A stretch of 64,000 nt of DNA, taken from NCBI GenBank assembly GCA_903905065.1, contig CAIVEW010000050.1:62001-126000 (forward strand). The letters are read 5' to 3'. The DNA is from an uncultured Bacteroidota bacterium. Lineage in GTDB: Bacteria; Bacteroidota; Bacteroidia; Chitinophagales; Chitinophagaceae. A program made the translations under genes and the position numbers. Shown piece after piece: positions 1,317 through 47,976 of this stretch (position 1 is the stretch's first letter; each line of letters starts with the position of its first letter). The notes beneath the pieces are model-generated. The model worked only from the letters and a program-made list of their open reading frames with translations. It did no database searches and was not told the origin of the DNA.

Positions 1317-3173
1317 ATGAAGCAAATCAGTAAGGCAGTGATCCTGATCGTTGATGATAAGCCGGCAAACTTGTTTGCGCTGGAGCACCTGCTTGCAGGT
1401 AAAGACAGGGTGATACTACAGGCTGCGGATGGCAAAAGCGCGCTAAAGATAGCACTGACTAAAAATATCAACCTGATCATCCTGGATGTTCAAATGCCTG
1501 ATATGGATGGTTTTGAAGTGGCCCAGATACTACAGTCGAACAACAAAACGAAGGAGATACCGATCATCTTCGCGACTGCGGAGCGCACCGAGCACCAGTT
1601 TATGATGCAGGGTTTCGGCGAAGGTGCCATAGACTATTTGTTTAAGCCGCTGGATCCCGAAGTGGTTAAAGCGAAGGTGAATGTTCATTTAAAAATGCAG
1701 CTCCAGAGAAGGGAGCTTATCGACAAGAATATTTCGCTGCAAAAGAGCGAACTGCTGATCAATAATTCGGCCGATATAATTGGTATCATCGACACTGCAA
1801 CTTTTAAGATAGAAGAGATCAACCTCGCGTTTCATTCCATAGTTGGCTACACACTTGAAGAGACCAGGGGTGTAGCGATCACATTTTTTTTGAGTAATGA
1901 GGACAGAGTATTGTTCAGCGATATGGCCCGGCAAACGAAAGATCGTCTTTCGTTTGATACCAGGATATATTGCAAGAACCGGAGCATTAAGTGGCTGGAA
2001 TGGAAGGTGGTGGTGAAAAACAGGAAATGGTTTGTGAACGCCCGTGATATCACCGAGATCAAGGAGGTGGAACGGATAAGAAATTACCTGGCCACGGTGG
2101 TAAAGCAATCGAATGACGCTATATACATACACAATAATGAAGGGCAGATCATCTCGTGGAATGAGGGCGCTGAAAAAATATATGGCTATACAGAGAGTGA
2201 GGCCCTGAAAATGAAGATATGGAATATCATTCCTCACCACATGCAGGTGGAAATAGAAGAGATCGTGCACAAGATATTGCAGGGTGAGAAGATAGAACTC
2301 TTTGAAACAAAACGGATAACCAAGCATGGCAGGCTTGTAGATGTGCTCCTTTCCGCCGCGGTGATATCGGACCCCGGGAGCAACCAGCAGTCTATTGCAA
2401 TAACCGAACGCGATATTACGCAGCAGAAAATAGCGGATGGGCAGATCAGCCAGTTGAATAAAGACCTTGAAAATAATGTAGCTGAACTAAAAAACATGAA
2501 TAAGGAACTGGAGTCGTTTTCTTATTCTGTTTCGCATGACCTGCGCGCACCGTTGCGTGCGGTGAATGCCTATTCAAAGATATTTGAAGAAGACTATACG
2601 GCCATTTTAGATGATGACGCAAAAAAGCTCCTGGCAAAAATCAATTATAATGCTCAAAGAATGGGGACGCTCATTGACGATCTGCTTGCGTTTTCCAAAC
2701 TTGGACGAAAAGAGGTGCAGCGGTCACTGGTAAACACCAAGGAAATTGTTGAAGCTATATTGAGCGAGATCAACCTGGCGTCGCCATACAAAGCCGTTAT
2801 CAGGGTGAATGAATTGCCAACTGTATATGCCGACTCGTCTTTGATACGGCAAGTGTGGGTGAACCTGTTATCGAATGCGATAAAATACTCGGATAAGAAG
2901 GAGTCTCCCGAAGTGGAAGTAGGCGCAACGGAGACAGAGCACGAGACAACCTACTACGTGAAAGACAATGGGGCGGGCTTTGATATGAAGTATGCTGATA
3001 AATTATTTGGCGTATTCCAGCGGCTGCATGCCAACAGCGAGTTTGAAGGCACGGGCATTGGCCTGGCCATCGTGCAGCGCATCATCACCCGGCATGGTGG
3101 CAGGATATGGGCGGACGCAAAAGTAAACGAAGGGGCCACTTTTTATTTTACGCTGCCTAAAATGGAGGGATAA
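1317..3173 (+). CDS. Receiver-PAS-PAS-histidine kinase
   Basis: A 618-residue signalling protein, apparently cytoplasmic since no membrane segment is seen. Order: receiver domain (about 8-125, phospho-acceptor Asp57 in LDVQMPDMDG), a short coiled linker, two PAS domains (about 145-255 and 260-380), a HisKA dimerisation domain with phospho-acceptor His407 in SVSHDLRAPLR, and a HATPase domain with N-box NLLSNAIKYS, G1 box DNGAGFD and G2 box GTGIGLAI. The N-terminal receiver means it can be controlled by another kinase. It closes the cheR-cheB-kinase cluster, a combination common in Bacteroidota outside chemotaxis operons. The HDLRAPLR box resembles phytochrome-type kinases. Confidence 0.9.
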   Translation: MKQISKAVILIVDDKPANLFALEHLLAGKDRVILQAADGKSALKIALTKNINLIILDVQMPDMDGFEVAQILQSNNKTKEIPIIFATAERTEHQFMMQGFGEGAIDYLFKPLDPEVVKAKVNVHLKMQLQRRELIDKNISLQKSELLINNSADIIGIIDTATFKIEEINLAFHSIVGYTLEETRGVAITFFLSNEDRVLFSDMARQTKDRLSFDTRIYCKNRSIKWLEWKVVVKNRKWFVNARDITEIKEVERIRNYLATVVKQSNDAIYIHNNEGQIISWNEGAEKIYGYTESEALKMKIWNIIPHHMQVEIEEIVHKILQGEKIELFETKRITKHGRLVDVLLSAAVISDPGSNQQSIAITERDITQQKIADGQISQLNKDLENNVAELKNMNKELESFSYSVSHDLRAPLRAVNAYSKIFEEDYTAILDDDAKKLLAKINYNAQRMGTLIDDLLAFSKLGRKEVQRSLVNTKEIVEAILSEINLASPYKAVIRVNELPTVYADSSLIRQVWVNLLSNAIKYSDKKESPEVEVGATETEHETTYYVKDNGAGFDMKYADKLFGVFQRLHANSEFEGTGIGLAIVQRIITRHGGRIWADAKVNEGATFYFTLPKMEG

Positions 3174-39588: not shown

Positions 39589-40131
39589 ATGAGTATCAAG
39601 GAGCGGCAAAAGAAGGTGCTAGAGAAGGGCGCTGCCAATATTACTAAATGGGTAGGCTCTACAACTTCAGTGGTGCTGCATACTATTCTGTTTATCGTTT
39701 CATTTATTCTTCCTTATCTGGGTGTGGTAAGTTTTGAAAGGATGTTGTTATTCCTAACCACTATCGTATCGCTGGAAGCTATATATCTGTCCATATTTAT
39801 ACAGATGTCTATAAATATGAACAACCAAAACATTGAGATCATCCAGGAAGACATCGAAGAGCTTGGCGAAGACATCGAGGAAATAAGTGAAGACATTGAG
39901 GAGCTTGGTGAAGACATCGAAGAGATAGGCGAGGACATTGAAGAGATACAAAAAGACGTGGACGAGATACAAAAGGATGTGGACGAGATACAGGAAGACG
40001 TGGTAGAGATACAGGAAGAAACAACCGAAGACGAAAGCAAGGAAAACAAAGAATCAGAGATACTATTGTCCATTCAGGCTACACTGCTGCATTTGCAGAA
40101 AGAGATAGAGCAATTGAAGCATAAAAAGTAG
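39589..40131 (+). CDS. DUF1003-like membrane protein with a heptad coiled-coil tail
   Basis: A 180-residue protein: N-terminal part with two membrane helices (about 25-47 and 52-72; SLEAIYLSIFIQMS recalls DUF1003 or low-affinity iron permease proteins), followed by eight consecutive 7-residue units of the EDIEELG/KDVDEIQ type (residues 87-142) and a polar tail. The heptads predict a very acidic coiled coil that could drive oligomerisation. Function unknown. Confidence 0.75.
   Translation: MSIKERQKKVLEKGAANITKWVGSTTSVVLHTILFIVSFILPYLGVVSFERMLLFLTTIVSLEAIYLSIFIQMSINMNNQNIEIIQEDIEELGEDIEEISEDIEELGEDIEEIGEDIEEIQKDVDEIQKDVDEIQEDVVEIQEETTEDESKENKESEILLSIQATLLHLQKEIEQLKHKK
39847..40014 (+). repeat. 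Eight tandem 21-nt repeats encoding heptads
   Basis: Eight consecutive 21-nt units encode EDIEELG, EDIEEIS, EDIEELG, EDIEEIG, EDIEEIQ, KDVDEIQ, KDVDEIQ and EDVVEIQ. The first five are close copies and the last three form a second type, suggesting repeat expansion. Confidence 0.85.
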
Positions 40132-43681: not shown

Positions 43682-43710
43682 TAACAATTTCATATTTCGT
43701 TGAATATTTT

Positions 43711-43738
43711 ATAGGGCCCGCTGCGGCCCTATATTCGT
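43711..43738 (+). terminator. Terminator of amtB
   Basis: ATAGGGCC (43711-43718) pairs with GGCCCTAT (43725-43732) around CGCTGC, followed by ATTCGTTT. Confidence 0.65.
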
Positions 43739-43904
43739 TTATATAGCTACCTAAATTAAAATCACCTTGGTATGGTTTTTATGTGGAAAAAAGAATAGGC
43801 CGCCGGCATTGTCACGAATTAATTGAGATTCAAAAGATTATTGATGTGCAAGACTAAAAATGACCGCAGCCTTCAATTTAAATGAAAAAAATTATTTCAA
43901 TAAG

Positions 43905-45641
43905 ATGGCCACAAAGAAGGAAAAAACACCGCCAAAATTAACTTTGGAGAAAACGCCCACAGGCATTGTGGGGCTTGATGAGTTGACCGGTGGCGGCATA
44001 CCACAAGGCAGGCCAACATTGGTTTGCGGAGAACCAGGATGCGGCAAAACATTGCTATCGTTAGAATTTATTGTCCGTGGTGCTACAGAATTTAACGAGC
44101 CGGGTGTGTTTATTGCATTTGAAGAAAAATCTGAGGAACTTGCCATTAATGCTGCTTCCCTTGGATTTGACCTTGGCAAACTACAAAACGACGGCTTACT
44201 GAAAATAGATCACATTTACATAGAACGCAGCGAGATCGAAGAAACCGGGGAGTATGACCTCGAGGGATTATTTATCCGGTTGGATCATGCCATTAACGTG
44301 ATTGGAGCTAAAAGGGTTGTGCTGGATACTATTGAAAATCTTTTTTCCGGCTTATCGAACCAGGCAATCCTACGTTCAGAGTTAAGACGGCTTTTTCAGT
44401 GGCTAAAAGACAAGAACGTAACAGCAATTATAACCGGTGAAAAGGGAGATGGGCTGCTCACGAGGCAGGGTCTTGAAGAATATGTGTCTGACTGCGTGAT
44501 ATTATTGGAACACCGCGTAGTTAACAAGATATCCACCCGCTTCCTTCGGATAGTTAAATATCGCGGCTCGGTGCATGGTACTAATGAGTATCCTTTTTTG
44601 ATCGATAGTGAAGGCATCTCTGTTTTGCCGGTTACCTCCCTTCTTTTAGCACACGAAGTTTCGACCGACCGCATCTCGTCGGGTATTCCGGTGCTGGATG
44701 ACATGCTGGGTGGCAAAGGTTTTTACAGAGGTAGCAGTATATTGGTGTCCGGCACAGCAGGTACTGGTAAAACCAGCATAGCTGCGTATTTTGCCGATAG
44801 TACCTGTAAGCGAAAGGAACGGTGTGTCTATTTTGCCTTTGAGGAATCGCCGCAGCAGATCATCCGTAATATGAAGTCTATAGGTGTGGATCTTGACACG
44901 CATATAAAAAAGGGATTACTGCAGTTTCACGCTTCGCGGCCTACTTTGTTCGGCCTGGAGATGCACCTGGTGAGCATTTACAAAACCATAAAGAAATTCA
45001 AGCCGCAGACCGTTATTCTTGACCCCATTACAAATCTCATCACCGTAGGTTCTGTAAGTGAAGTAAAATCTATGCTGATCAGGCTAATAGATTTTTTGCA
45101 GGCGGAGCAGATCACTGTGATGTTCACGGCGCTAACGCTCAACACTATTGTCAGCGAGCAAACCGATGAGGGGGTGTCTTCGCTTGTTGATGCGTGGTTA
45201 CTGGTGCGAGATATTGAGACAAACGGAGAACGCAACAGGGGGATGTACATTATGAAATCGCGGGGTATGAAGCATTCTAACCAGGTTAGGGAGTTTGTAA
45301 TTAGAGACTCCGGGCTTGACCTGGTAGATGTTTTCCTGGGCCCTGAAGGTGTGCTTACGGGCTCTGCACGGGAAGCAGAGCAATTGAAACTGCAGGCGGG
45401 GCATGTGTTGCGTGATTTCGCCGTGGGAAGAAAGGATAAGGAAATTCAAAGAAAGAGAACGGTGCTAGAGGCGAAAATAACCAGCCTGAAAGAGGAATTT
45501 GAATCAGTAGCAGATGAACTGAATAAATCCTATCAGGAAGAGGATTTGCGTAACAGTGTTATGGAGAAAAATCGCGCTGCGCTTACCAATATTAGAAATA
45601 ACAAGGAAGCGGCAACCGGAAAAAACAGAAAAGCAAATTGA
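43905..45641 (+). CDS. kaiC: KaiC family clock-type ATPase
   Basis: A 578-residue double RecA-like ATPase (KaiC). First domain: Walker A GEPGCGKT (Lys48) and catalytic Glu pair 73-74 (FEEKS). Second domain: Walker [10 protein letters not shown] (Lys289) and Glu pair 313-314 (FEESP). Ser425-Ser426 (VSSLVD) align with the Ser431/Thr432 phosphosites of cyanobacterial KaiC, by reading the surrounding motif. A long basic coiled tail (about 485-578) follows. An in-frame ATG at 43860 is possible, but the family N-terminus fits 43905. First gene of a five-gene operon. Confidence 0.92.
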
Positions 45642-45646
45642 GGATC

Positions 45647-45934
45647 ATGGAAGAACAAACTTGGGAACTCCGGCTTTATGTAGCCGGTAAAACCGCAAAA
45701 TCCGTTACTGCGCTTGCCAACCTGAAAAAATATTGTGAAGAGCATTTGAAGGGCAAGTATGTCATCGAAATAATAGACTTGCTGCTACAGCCGCAACTGG
45801 CCGAGGGGGATCAGATACTTGCCATTCCTACACTCGTTAGAAAGGTTCCCGAGCCGATCAGGAAGATCATCGGGGATCTCTCCAATGAAGAAAAAGTGTT
45901 AGTAGGATTAAACATTCGCCCGGTAAATAAATAG
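45647..45934 (+). CDS. kaiB: KaiB family protein, copy 1
   Basis: A 95-residue KaiB protein with thioredoxin-like fold ([54 protein letters not shown]). KaiB binds the first KaiC domain and, in cyanobacteria, switches fold on binding. Begins 5 nt after kaiC and ends 1 nt before the second kaiB. ATG 45647 is preferred to the ATG at 45638, which overlaps kaiC. Confidence 0.92.
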
Positions 45935-45935
45935 C

Positions 45936-46262
45936 ATGAGCAGGAAAAAAAATAGTGATGTAGAGGAAACTGAAGGCGAAAATGTGCAAGGTAAATTTGT
46001 ACTTCGTTTATTTATTACTGGCGCTTCGCCAAATTCCTCCCGTGCGATAACTAATCTGAAAAATATCTGTGAGGCAAATATTCCAGGTAGCTATTCCCTG
46101 GAGATTATCGATGTTTATCAGTCAAACGATATTGCGGAATCGGAAGGGCTCATAGCGTTACCGATGCTAGTAAAGAAATACCCGTTACCGGAGCGGCGAA
46201 TGATCGGAGATATGTCGAATACAAGAAAAGTTTTAACAGGTTTAGGCTTGGTACCTCAATGA
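45936..46262 (+). CDS. kaiB: KaiB family protein, copy 2
   Basis: A 108-residue second KaiB with a charged about 20-residue N-terminal extension (MSRKKNSDVEETEGE), then the same fold: LRLFITGASPNSSRAITNLK, YSLEIIDVYQS, ALPMLVKKYPLPERRMIGDMS. It has diverged strongly from copy 1, so the two are not a recent duplication. One nt separates it from copy 1 and 6 nt from the kinase. Confidence 0.9.
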   Translation: MSRKKNSDVEETEGENVQGKFVLRLFITGASPNSSRAITNLKNICEANIPGSYSLEIIDVYQSNDIAESEGLIALPMLVKKYPLPERRMIGDMSNTRKVLTGLGLVPQ

Positions 46263-46268
46263 TGACGG

Positions 46269-47555
46269 ATGGAAGCAACGGCGCGGACATATGAAGAGTT
46301 ACTGACACAAGTTACAGAGCTGCAGTGGCAACTGGAAGAGGCTAATGATACTATTGAAGCCATACGAACAGGCCAGGTAGATGCCCTTGTGTTGGAAAGT
46401 GAGAACGGGCACCAGTTATATACACTAAAAAGTGCGGATCAGACTTACCGTGTATTCATCGAAAAGATGAACGAAGGCGCGGTTACGCTGAATAAGGATG
46501 GCATCATTCTATATTGCAATTCACAGTTTGCAACATTGGTTAATACTTCCCGTTCCAGTGTGGTGGGCGCGCCATTCGATCACTTTATTTCATTGGGATA
46601 TAAAAACCAATTTAAGCTTTTAATGGAGCGGGGTTGGAAAGAGGACTGTAAAGGCGAGGTCGTTTTGAAGGCCAGAAAGCATCCCGTTGTACGGCTGTCA
46701 TTAACCACCCTGGAACTTGACGAAGGCTTTTCGTTGAGTATAATTGTCACTGATCTCACTGCGGAAAAAGACGCACAGAAAGATCTTAAGAACAAGAACG
46801 AAGAATTAGAAAGAATCAACCACGCGTTAGAAACAAGTAATAATGATTTGCTTCAATTTGCCTCAGTGGCATCTCACGACCTGCAGGAGCCGTTAAGGAA
46901 AATAGCCGTCTTTTCGGGCCTGCTGAAGGACAGAGATACAAATAATTTATCGGAAAATGCGCAGGTGTTCATTGATAAAATACTTTCGTCGGCCGAACGG
47001 ATGAAGCAATTAATAATCGATGTGCTCAACTATTCCCGGCTCTCCGCCAACGATCAAAAGCCGGAACACGTGGAGCTGACGGAAATAGTAAAGGACTGGA
47101 TGACCGATTATGAGATCCTGATCCGCGAAAAGAGGGCGAAAATTTATTTTGATCAGCTTCCTGTTATTGAAGCGAATAAGGGGCAGGTAAGACAGGTTTT
47201 TCAGAATATTTTGAGTAATTCTTTAAAATTCAGTAAAAACTATGTGCCGCCTGTGATCACTATCACCGCTACAAGGATAAAAGATAAGAATTTTGATGCG
47301 GCCCCAGGCAACAATGGGAAATATTTTCGCATCAGCATAAAAGACAATGGGATAGGCTTTGACCAGAAATACGTGGCCAATGTTTTCTCATTGTTTGAGC
47401 GACTAAATACCAAGGATAAGTATGAAGGGACAGGGATAGGGTTAGCTGTGGCGAAGAAGATCGTTGAAAAACACAACGGCCTTATTACCGCTCGAAGTAC
47501 TGCGGGAGTTGGGTCGGAGTTTATTATTTTGCTGCCGGTAGCGCAGTTTTATTGA
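46269..47555 (+). CDS. PAS-histidine kinase of the Kai operon
   Basis: A 428-residue soluble histidine kinase. A short coiled N-terminus (about 1-50) and a PAS domain (about 55-165) are followed by a coiled linker, HisKA with His203 in VASHDLQEPLRK, and HATPase with NILSNSLKFS, DNGIGFD and GTGIGLAV. It lacks the KaiB-like domain by which cyanobacterial SasA docks to KaiC; instead separate KaiB proteins are encoded upstream. It probably reads KaiC or KaiB state and phosphorylates the receiver encoded 13 nt downstream. Confidence 0.9.
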   Translation: MEATARTYEELLTQVTELQWQLEEANDTIEAIRTGQVDALVLESENGHQLYTLKSADQTYRVFIEKMNEGAVTLNKDGIILYCNSQFATLVNTSRSSVVGAPFDHFISLGYKNQFKLLMERGWKEDCKGEVVLKARKHPVVRLSLTTLELDEGFSLSIIVTDLTAEKDAQKDLKNKNEELERINHALETSNNDLLQFASVASHDLQEPLRKIAVFSGLLKDRDTNNLSENAQVFIDKILSSAERMKQLIIDVLNYSRLSANDQKPEHVELTEIVKDWMTDYEILIREKRAKIYFDQLPVIEANKGQVRQVFQNILSNSLKFSKNYVPPVITITATRIKDKNFDAAPGNNGKYFRISIKDNGIGFDQKYVANVFSLFERLNTKDKYEGTGIGLAVAKKIVEKHNGLITARSTAGVGSEFIILLPVAQFY

Positions 47556-47568
47556 AATTGGCCTGGAT

Positions 47569-47976
47569 ATGGTGAAAAAGAAAGTTTTGCTTGCAGAAGA
47601 TGATGGTGACGATAATTTCTTTTTTGTGTACTTCCTGGAAGAGCGTGTGGATATATCCATTCTAAACTGCGTAGAAAATGGCCTTGAGGTAATACAGTTT
47701 CTGGACGCTCTTGCAAATAATGAGGATTTGCCGGATTTTATTTTATTGGATCAGAACATGCCGAAAATGAACGGTCTCGAAACTTTGAAGTATTTGAAAG
47801 GCAACGCTCGGTATGCAAGCATCCCTGTTTTTGTGTACTCAACTTATGCTGATCAGAATCTTGCAGAAAAATGCGGGTTATTCGGCGCGGCGCTGGTTCA
47901 TCAGAAGCCAACTGATAAAGAAGGTTATAACAAGATGATAGATGCCTGCATTGAAATGATCGATAACATCGCGTAA
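47569..47976 (+). CDS. Single-domain response regulator of the Kai operon
   Basis: A 135-residue receiver without an output domain. Acidic pocket EDDGDD (residues 10-15), phospho-acceptor Asp61 in LLDQNMPKMNG, Ser/Thr switch in FVYSTYAD and Lys in HQKPTDKEG. It belongs to the Rcp1-like family that usually pairs with phytochrome-like kinases. Output must be through protein binding or phosphotransfer. Last gene of the Kai operon. Confidence 0.9.
   Translation: MVKKKVLLAEDDGDDNFFFVYFLEERVDISILNCVENGLEVIQFLDALANNEDLPDFILLDQNMPKMNGLETLKYLKGNARYASIPVFVYSTYADQNLAEKCGLFGAALVHQKPTDKEGYNKMIDACIEMIDNIA

Follow-up and report, generated by a model that had tools for sequence, protein, structure and literature searches.

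In a 64,000-nucleotide stretch of DNA from an uncultured Bacteroidota bacterium of the family Chitinophagaceae (assembly GCA_903905065.1, contig CAIVEW010000050.1, positions 62,001 to 126,000 of the forward strand; hereafter the window), we examined a Kai module that comprises kaiC, two different kaiB genes, a PAS histidine kinase gene and a gene for a single-domain receiver. Sequence comparison assigns this module to the class of KaiA-less KaiBC timers represented by Rhodobacter sphaeroides. Its conserved core, as read from related loci, is a set of four genes, kaiC-kaiB-kaiB followed by an output gene that begins with an unnamed N-terminal (Nt) segment and a PAS domain. By their phylogeny, the two KaiBs are products of an ancient duplication in which gene order has been preserved. 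The models and sequences suggest that their roles are unequal: KaiB1 would switch folds, and KaiB2 is apparently fixed in the KaiC-binding fold. That a KaiBC timer is linked to this particular kinase is, in our judgement, very probable.

An initial annotation, made by a model from the letters of this stretch, had proposed the five genes, and all five open reading frames (ORFs) are present in the place and order that it gave (43905-47976, Table 1). They lie on the forward strand and are separated by gaps of 5, 1, 6 and 13 nt. Starting from an in-frame ATG at 43860 would lengthen KaiC by 15 residues; the start at 43905 agrees with the family alignment.

Table 1. Positions of the Kai module and associated features in the window.
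Feature	Position	Strand	Basis
kaiC, 578 aa, CI and CII ATPase domains	43905..45641	+	ORF, Pfam, PDB match, motifs
KaiC C-terminal extension, residues ~490-578	45372..45638	+	8dba alignment
kaiB1, 95 aa, clade B1, predicted ground-state metamorphic-type KaiB	45647..45934	+	Pfam, tree, AF2
kaiB2, 108 aa, clade B2, predicted fold-switched thioredoxin-like KaiB	45936..46262	+	Pfam, tree, AF2
PAS histidine kinase, 428 aa, His203	46269..47555	+	Pfam, motif
Kai-associated Nt segment, kinase residues 10-72, proposed docking element	46296..46484	+	Profile searches
PAS domain of the kinase	46455..46769	+	Pfam, profile
Single-domain receiver, 135 aa, Asp61	47569..47976	+	Pfam, motif
Terminator-like hairpin, 9 pairs, T-rich tail, consensus match only	43710..43733	+	

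The Pfam family KaiC (PF06745) covers two stretches of the KaiC protein (E 1.2e-109). Walker A motifs at residues 42 and 283 and catalytic glutamate pairs (FEE) at 72 and 312 mark two RecA-like domains. The serines at 425-426 align with the Ser-Ser of R. sphaeroides KaiC (KaiC-RS) and represent two adjacent phosphorylatable residues in CII, so that the annotated features, two intact ATPase domains and Ser-Ser at the phosphosite position, could all be located in the sequence. The motif GEYDL at residue 115 opens a region that we take to be the KaiB-binding loop. The best PDB match is KaiC-RS (8dba, 640 bits, residues 14-544), the next different KaiC structure, 8zn5, scores 371 bits, and S. elongatus KaiC (1tf7) scores 322 bits. 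In this sequence alignment the tail of the window KaiC pairs with the coiled-coil tail of dodecameric KaiC-RS up to residue 544. KaiC-RS is described as a dodecamer held together by this tail and as an ATP/ADP-driven hourglass (PMC10076222). Of 117 KaiCs from loci with tandem kaiB genes, 104 have a recognisable Ser-Ser. CII could be delimited at its end in 101, and 96 of these carry at least 90 residues beyond it. Some Bacteroidota KaiCs are short (474-500 aa; loci L024, L025, L032, L036 and L093) and apparently tail-less, with both KaiBs kept.

A search of the genome gave no KaiA match, which bears out the annotated absence of kaiA; among 14 controls only S. elongatus matched. The module does not contain the KaiA of a KaiABC oscillator. 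The KaiB searches of the genome found exactly two KaiBs, those of the module, and the genome-wide KaiC search returned one full-length and one weak partial match.

Both small proteins downstream of KaiC are recognised by the Pfam KaiB family (PF07689; 95.5 and 74.7 bits at a cut-off of 27), and neither reaches the NCBIfam KaiB equivalog cut-offs. They share 44% identity over 87 residues. The best PDB match of KaiB1 is R. sphaeroides KaiB (KaiB-RS, 8fwj, 97.8 bits); KaiB2 scores 79.5 bits with S. elongatus KaiB and 75.3 bits with KaiB-RS. To place this pair we collected 121 tandem loci, 118 of them distinct, from ten named phyla, leaving out two loci with three or four KaiBs. In a tree of 281 KaiB domains, one branch (support of 100 in the Shimodaira-Hasegawa-type approximate likelihood-ratio test, SH-aLRT) separates 116/118 first from 116/118 second KaiBs. 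L134 and L165 depart from this only artefactually: their second ORF is open far upstream and was therefore sorted first, and with the true order the separation is 118/118 on both sides. A smaller bootstrap tree (42 loci, 86 rows) places the 42 first KaiBs together with R. sphaeroides KaiB against the 42 second KaiBs together with S. elongatus KaiB (98/91), and a branch at 78/92 sets the 42 second KaiBs apart by themselves. Both trees were built on few alignment columns, and since they disagree on S. elongatus KaiB, which is on the B1 side in the 281-row tree and on the opposite side in the 86-row tree, the placement of this protein is unsettled. On either tree the two proteins that had been annotated as distinct KaiBs are anciently separate paralogues. 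Divergence is also faster among second KaiBs, with a median path of 3.50 against 1.84 among first KaiBs and a longer path in 97.6% of 1500 pairs sampled from 116 loci, and second KaiBs have conserved residues of their own (P62 100%, D45 99%, Y47 78%, Q48 78%). Single KaiBs occur on both sides of the 281-row tree, and some lineages keep a B2-type KaiB alone.

We also considered whether KaiB2 descends from the N-terminal domain of SasA. KaiB1 and KaiB2 score 103.9 and 81.5 bits with a KaiB profile, compared with 23.4 and 22.5 bits with a SasA-type kinase profile, and because both fit the KaiB profile far better we retain the SasA comparison as a functional analogy alone. Several loci depart from the pair: a planctomycete metagenome-assembled genome (MAG) carries four tandem KaiBs (L118) and an archaeal MAG carries three (L119), in each case with the last on the B2 side and the rest on the B1 side; two Hymenobacter plasmids (L060, L061) carry a solitary B2-side KaiB with no kaiC in the fetched flanks; and L042 (genome G285) has an in-frame TGA in the second KaiB and a fragmented next gene, from decay or an assembly error.

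Within Chitinophagaceae, a KaiB above the cut-off was found in 37/294 genomes, and two matches that are adjacent by their coordinates in 34 of these 37, the genome of the window included. A sample of 395 Bacteroidota genomes, again including this one, contained an adjacent pair in 20 of 37 KaiB carriers. Pairs are a minority among the carriers in the two samples from other groups, the class of a Methylobacterium (4/13 carriers in 337 genomes) and the phylum of a planctomycete (4/15 carriers in 246 genomes), with the centre genome counted in each; three further planctomycetes have several non-adjacent KaiB copies, and some lineages retain one KaiB only. A scan with a KaiC alignment returned at least 560 relatives, of which the best 80 were retained. 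Two or more KaiBs follow kaiC in 70 of these 80, a biased share, given that the query alignment was headed by the KaiC of a two-KaiB locus; at least two of the other ten (L103, L161) are cut by a contig end. According to their record titles, these 70 loci belong to Pseudomonadota, Bacteroidota, Methanobacteriota (Methanoperedens), Planctomycetota, Myxococcota, Nitrospirota, Chloroflexota, Verrucomicrobiota, Thermodesulfobacteriota, Balneolota and Rokuibacteriota. Many carriers of tandem loci are MAGs, and isolates include Spirosoma validum, Pedobacter panaciterrae, Dyadobacter alkalitolerans, Taibaiella lutea and Methylobacterium species. That the system is peculiar to Bacteroidota is not supported by this spread, which is wider than the annotation implied. 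The gene-order comparison proposed there gave a divided answer: the four-gene core is conserved in many genomes, and the separate receiver is specific to certain lineages.

The gene after kaiB starts with an unnamed segment of about 60 residues followed by PAS. In the window this gene encodes a kinase with PAS, HisKA and HATPase_c domains by Pfam, with the phospho-accepting His203 in an intact domain. Searches with the Nt segment against Pfam, NCBIfam and PDB chains gave nothing significant (lowest E values 0.01, 0.016 and 0.067, respectively). We tried the possibility that it is a hidden KaiB domain and rejected it, as profile comparison with KaiB2 gave a probability of 0.3%. Pfam likewise shows no KaiB-like domain in this protein, as annotated, and by both methods it lacks the N-terminal KaiB-like thioredoxin domain of SasA. 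Among 160 KaiB loci, 142 have a gene matching the kinase profile within 400 nt downstream and 18 do not. All 142 genes match the Nt-PAS profile and 137 cover its start, a count with some circularity, since the same region was part of the kinase profile.

As an independent test, we searched whole genomes with the 63-residue Nt segment alone. It occurs in 25/25 genomes with a KaiB pair, once each and just after the pair, and in 0/27 KaiB-negative genomes. In the 395-genome sample 28 genomes gave a single match apiece, which in every case lies no more than 300 nt downstream of a kaiB. All 28 are among the 37 genomes with KaiB (20/20 with a pair, 8/17 of the others), and the remaining 358 gave none; some genomes of this sample were scored for 15 first-look candidates only, so that a weak copy could escape, and the KaiB and Nt counts were compared across draws that appear identical. 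In the class of a Pseudomonas, 6/203 genomes contain the segment, and a KaiB, sought in these six only, lies directly upstream in 6/6. Among the fetched loci, only three matches lie elsewhere than directly after kaiB, each of them inside a Kai locus (L148, L175 and, with a weak match, L113). These results agree with the annotation of a dedicated kinase in a KaiC-based signalling unit, given that the segment occurs once per genome and directly after kaiB in genomes where it was found.

What follows the Nt-PAS part varies. A Pfam scan of 20 Nt-PAS proteins, the window kinase included, showed HisKA kinases (window, L064, L068, L081, L087), hybrid kinases with a receiver (L056, L100, L115, L118, L130, L133, L174), HWE (L059, L147) and HisKA_3 kinases (L146, L172), HD domains (L071, L154), a sigma-54 activator with a Fis helix-turn-helix (HTH; L170) and one protein with no recognised domain (L125). 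In L170 (2408-4387), from a MAG labelled Myxococcota, Nt-PAS-PAS is fused to the activator directly after kaiC-kaiB, an arrangement by which a timer may drive transcription directly. In L071 (5327-6505) and L154 (8003-9784), Nt-PAS is joined to HD_5 in place of a kinase after a B2-side KaiB; their domain content suggests a second-messenger output.

In the receiver of the window, Pfam shows Response_reg and no further domain, and Asp61 lies in this intact domain; both the output-less character of the receiver and the His203/Asp61 pair of putative phospho-acceptors are as first annotated. Linkage of the receiver is looser than had been supposed. A separate receiver follows in 22/66 Bacteroidota tandem loci. 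Of 117 tandem loci with an Nt-PAS gene, 37 have a fused receiver and 27 have one as a separate neighbour; in 47 no receiver was found, and 6 are undecided at contig ends. The proposal that the five genes form one unit is not supported on this point.

We predicted the folds of the two KaiBs with AlphaFold2 (AF2), using a 13-row alignment for each protein in an approach after AF-Cluster (PMC10808063), and compared the models with the PDB by Foldseek. The KaiB1 model has the element order E-H-E-H-H-E of the ground state with one strand unformed (predicted local distance difference test, pLDDT, 72.3). The KaiB2 model has the order E-H-E-H-E-E-H of the fold-switched, thioredoxin-like state (pLDDT 73.5). 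For KaiB1 the top 17 matches are KaiB crystal structures (1wwj, 1vgl, 2qke, 1r5p, 4kso) with template-modelling (TM) scores of 0.79-0.93, and fold-switched entries reach at most 0.50; we take 1wwj, 1vgl, 1r5p and 4kso to be ground-state KaiB. Entry 2qke is named as ground state in the AF-Cluster report (PMC10808063). For KaiB2 the top 11 are fold-switched or KaiC-bound KaiBs (4kun, 8fwj, 5jyt, 5jwr, 5n8y, 5jwo, 5jwq, 8ubh), followed by the SasA N-domain (1t4y, 6x61), and ground-state KaiB is absent from the 50 listed matches.

The AF-Cluster report describes pockets of fold-switched KaiBs within the family, and states that KaiB-RS was flipped by I68R, V83D and a change of N84 (N84R in one place of that text, N84A elsewhere; PMC10808063). 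At these three sites KaiB1 has I, V and G, and KaiB2 has E, T and G. A charged residue at the I68 and/or V83 site occurs in 1/118 first and 69/118 second KaiBs, and in Bacteroidota 54/65 second KaiBs carry it (8/14 in named and 46/51 in unnamed loci). Taking models and residues together, we lean towards the view that KaiB2 is mainly fold-switched in this organism.

Evolutionary distances point weakly to a preference of the Nt segment for KaiB2. Across 108 loci, using partial correlations and a Mantel test, the Nt segment tracks KaiB2 after removal of KaiC and KaiB1 (partial r 0.27, ranks 0.35, Mantel p 0.003) and does not track KaiB1 (-0.01 and 0.05, p 0.59 and 0.15). It tracks KaiC most (0.41), and KaiC is tracked more by KaiB1 (0.57) than by KaiB2 (0.36-0.44) over all loci. 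For Pseudomonadota alone, the values for the Nt segment are 0.24 with KaiB2 (p 0.03) and 0.02 with KaiB1.

The explanation that we favour is a KaiA-less KaiBC timer with a built-in output in which KaiB1 resets and KaiB2 couples; as a whole it falls a little short of an even chance. KaiC, probably a coiled-coil dodecamer like KaiC-RS, would autophosphorylate S425/S426 according to ATP/ADP. KaiB1 would rest in the ground-state fold, slowly switch and bind the CI ring of phosphorylated KaiC, and its binding would speed ATP hydrolysis and dephosphorylation and thereby reset the timer. KaiB2, held in the fold-switched thioredoxin-like state, would correspond, as a separate protein, to the KaiC-binding domain of SasA; it would sit on KaiC in the absence of KaiB1 and connect KaiC to the Nt-PAS module of the kinase, which would then phosphorylate the receiver (His203 to Asp61). 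We infer the binding, the competition, the phosphotransfer and the position of the kinase as output rather than input. The coupler role of KaiB2, whose contacts with its partners are likewise conjectural, is a tentative element that draws on the fold predicted for KaiB2, its likeness to the SasA domain and the weak coevolution signal.

Several observations weigh against this scheme. The charged signature is not universal: it occurs in 12/33 second KaiBs of Pseudomonadota and 0/5 of Methanobacteriota, 23/118 second KaiBs are aliphatic at both the I68 and V83 sites, and a paired test of these sites overstates significance because the loci share ancestry. Both AF2 models have a pLDDT near 73 from one run each, and the alignments behind them differ in diversity (mean column identity 82% for KaiB1 vs 63% for KaiB2), a difference that may have influenced which fold was predicted. 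Single B1 KaiBs (11 loci), as in R. sphaeroides, and single B2 KaiBs (9 loci) also have an Nt-PAS gene after them, so that KaiB2 is not required for the Nt-PAS link. Distance tracking is equivocal at finer scale. When Bacteroidota are taken separately, the Nt segment correlates with each of the two KaiBs (0.43 and 0.37), and KaiB2 is no less closely tied to KaiC than KaiB1 is (0.62 vs 0.57). For the PAS part, correlations with both KaiBs are seen across the full set of loci (0.30 and 0.17), and those in Pseudomonadota are not clear for either KaiB (0.11, p 0.15; 0.20, p 0.06). Finally, for R. sphaeroides and R. rubrum an input role of the operon kinase has been proposed (PMC5520375, PMC10931921).

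The purpose of the module could differ from timekeeping. That it is a stress-response switch which reports the energy state or UV or heat stress is a serious possibility, from which we lean only slightly away: loss of kaiC1 makes Methylobacterium extorquens AM1 sensitive to UV (PMC8069551), and the kai genes of Legionella have been linked to stress. Such a role is compatible with the molecular mechanism proposed here, and KaiC-RS is described as an hourglass driven by ATP/ADP (PMC10076222).

It is less likely that the kinase is the input, with its PAS domain sensing redox, oxygen or another cue, its Nt segment docking on KaiC or KaiB and thereby setting or resetting the timer, and KaiB2 modifying KaiB1. 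The proposals for R. sphaeroides and R. rubrum, the presence of Nt-PAS beside single KaiBs and the closest tracking of the Nt segment being with KaiC all fit an input; the sigma-54 activator and HD domains found after Nt-PAS look like outputs, and the receiver is fused or adjacent in 64/117 loci. We think it unlikely that both KaiBs switch folds, with KaiB2 acting mainly in mixed oligomers or tuning the pool of free KaiB1 and the kinase reading KaiC directly. G88 (S. elongatus numbering) is kept in 64% of second KaiBs and in KaiB2 of the window, and many second KaiBs outside Bacteroidota lack the charged signature. The thioredoxin-like prediction for KaiB2, the charged residue at its I68 site and the roughly two-fold longer paths of second KaiBs argue the other way. 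The faster divergence of KaiB2 and the lineages with one KaiB would suit a redundant, decaying duplicate, but this already disfavoured idea is very improbable given retention in order in 118 distinct loci, the residues conserved among second KaiBs and the lineages that keep the B2 type alone.

Returning to the timer with a built-in output, we compared it with its closest known counterparts. The kaiC-kaiB-HWE kinase operon of R. sphaeroides (Cereibacter) shares with the window a tailed Ser-Ser KaiC, a B1-type KaiB and a PAS kinase with the same Nt segment; it differs in having one KaiB on record, an HWE-type kinase and no separate receiver listed adjacent. The kaiC1-kaiB2-kaiB1-kaiR1 cluster of M. 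extorquens AM1, which we compared by its description, has the same four-gene logic with two KaiBs, and its KaiC1 is reported to be phosphorylated on serines and needed for normal UV resistance (PMC8069551). Fetched Methylobacterium loci have the order kaiC-kaiB-kaiB-kinase, with the receiver fused in the one kinase scanned (L115). The cyanobacterial KaiABC system with SasA-RpaA resembles the module in KaiC, a fold-switching KaiB and the kinase-receiver logic, and the KaiB2 model resembles its SasA N-domain; the module differs in having no KaiA, a kinase without a KaiB-like domain and a receiver without a further domain. Legionella KaiB (4kun) and KaiB-TV4 (8ubh) share the thioredoxin-like state predicted for KaiB2, whereas KaiB2 is the second gene of a tandem with a ground-state-type KaiB.

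Because the M. extorquens AM1 cluster already has it, the gene arrangement itself is not new. Operons of kaiC, kaiB and a PAS histidine kinase have been described in R. sphaeroides and R. palustris (PMC4794148), and the clustering of kaiC, kaiB and a kinase was noted in 2011 (PMC3164672). One Bacteroidetes group is said to carry only KaiB2/KaiC2-type proteins, names that follow Synechocystis and do not correspond to clades B1 and B2 (PMC5520375). In the open-access literature searched we found no account of distinct roles or folds of tandem KaiBs, nor of the Nt segment. On that basis three things appear to be new: the ancient split of KaiB into two clades, the division of folds predicted for them, and the Nt segment with its restriction to Kai loci in the genomes searched.

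How KaiC timers outside cyanobacteria relay their signal is an open question, since KaiA and a SasA-type kinase are missing here. The Kai-restricted Nt-PAS part offers a specific candidate for what joins the timer to its output, and its sequence can serve as a tag for locating timer outputs; if our reading is true, the module shows how clock-like timers outside cyanobacteria hand on their signal. One metamorphic and one fixed KaiB would then be a natural experiment in the role splitting of a fold-switching protein, an idea open to direct tests, since both proteins and the fragment of the kinase are small and several carriers exist as cultured isolates from the environment. It is conceivable, if somewhat doubtful, that KaiBC timers of bacteria and methane-oxidising archaea share one output architecture, in which a fold-locked second KaiB serves as a detached SasA-type sensor and the Nt-PAS part plugs into interchangeable effectors (kinases, HD hydrolases, sigma-54 activators). 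The well-studied single-KaiB system of R. sphaeroides would then be a reduced version of it.

Beyond the module, the terminator-like hairpin of Table 1 lies between kaiC and an upstream gene that by eye, on a reading of the sequence, is ammonium-transporter-like, and it may separate two units. Promoter-like sites are not in excess (9 observed vs 8.6 expected). Far from the module, a separate 618-aa ORF at 1317-3173 of the window matches the module kinase (132 bits). At 39589-40131, a 180-aa ORF begins with a hydrophobic stretch and contains repeated EDIEELGEDIEE-like heptads; it is a candidate for a membrane-anchored coiled-coil protein.

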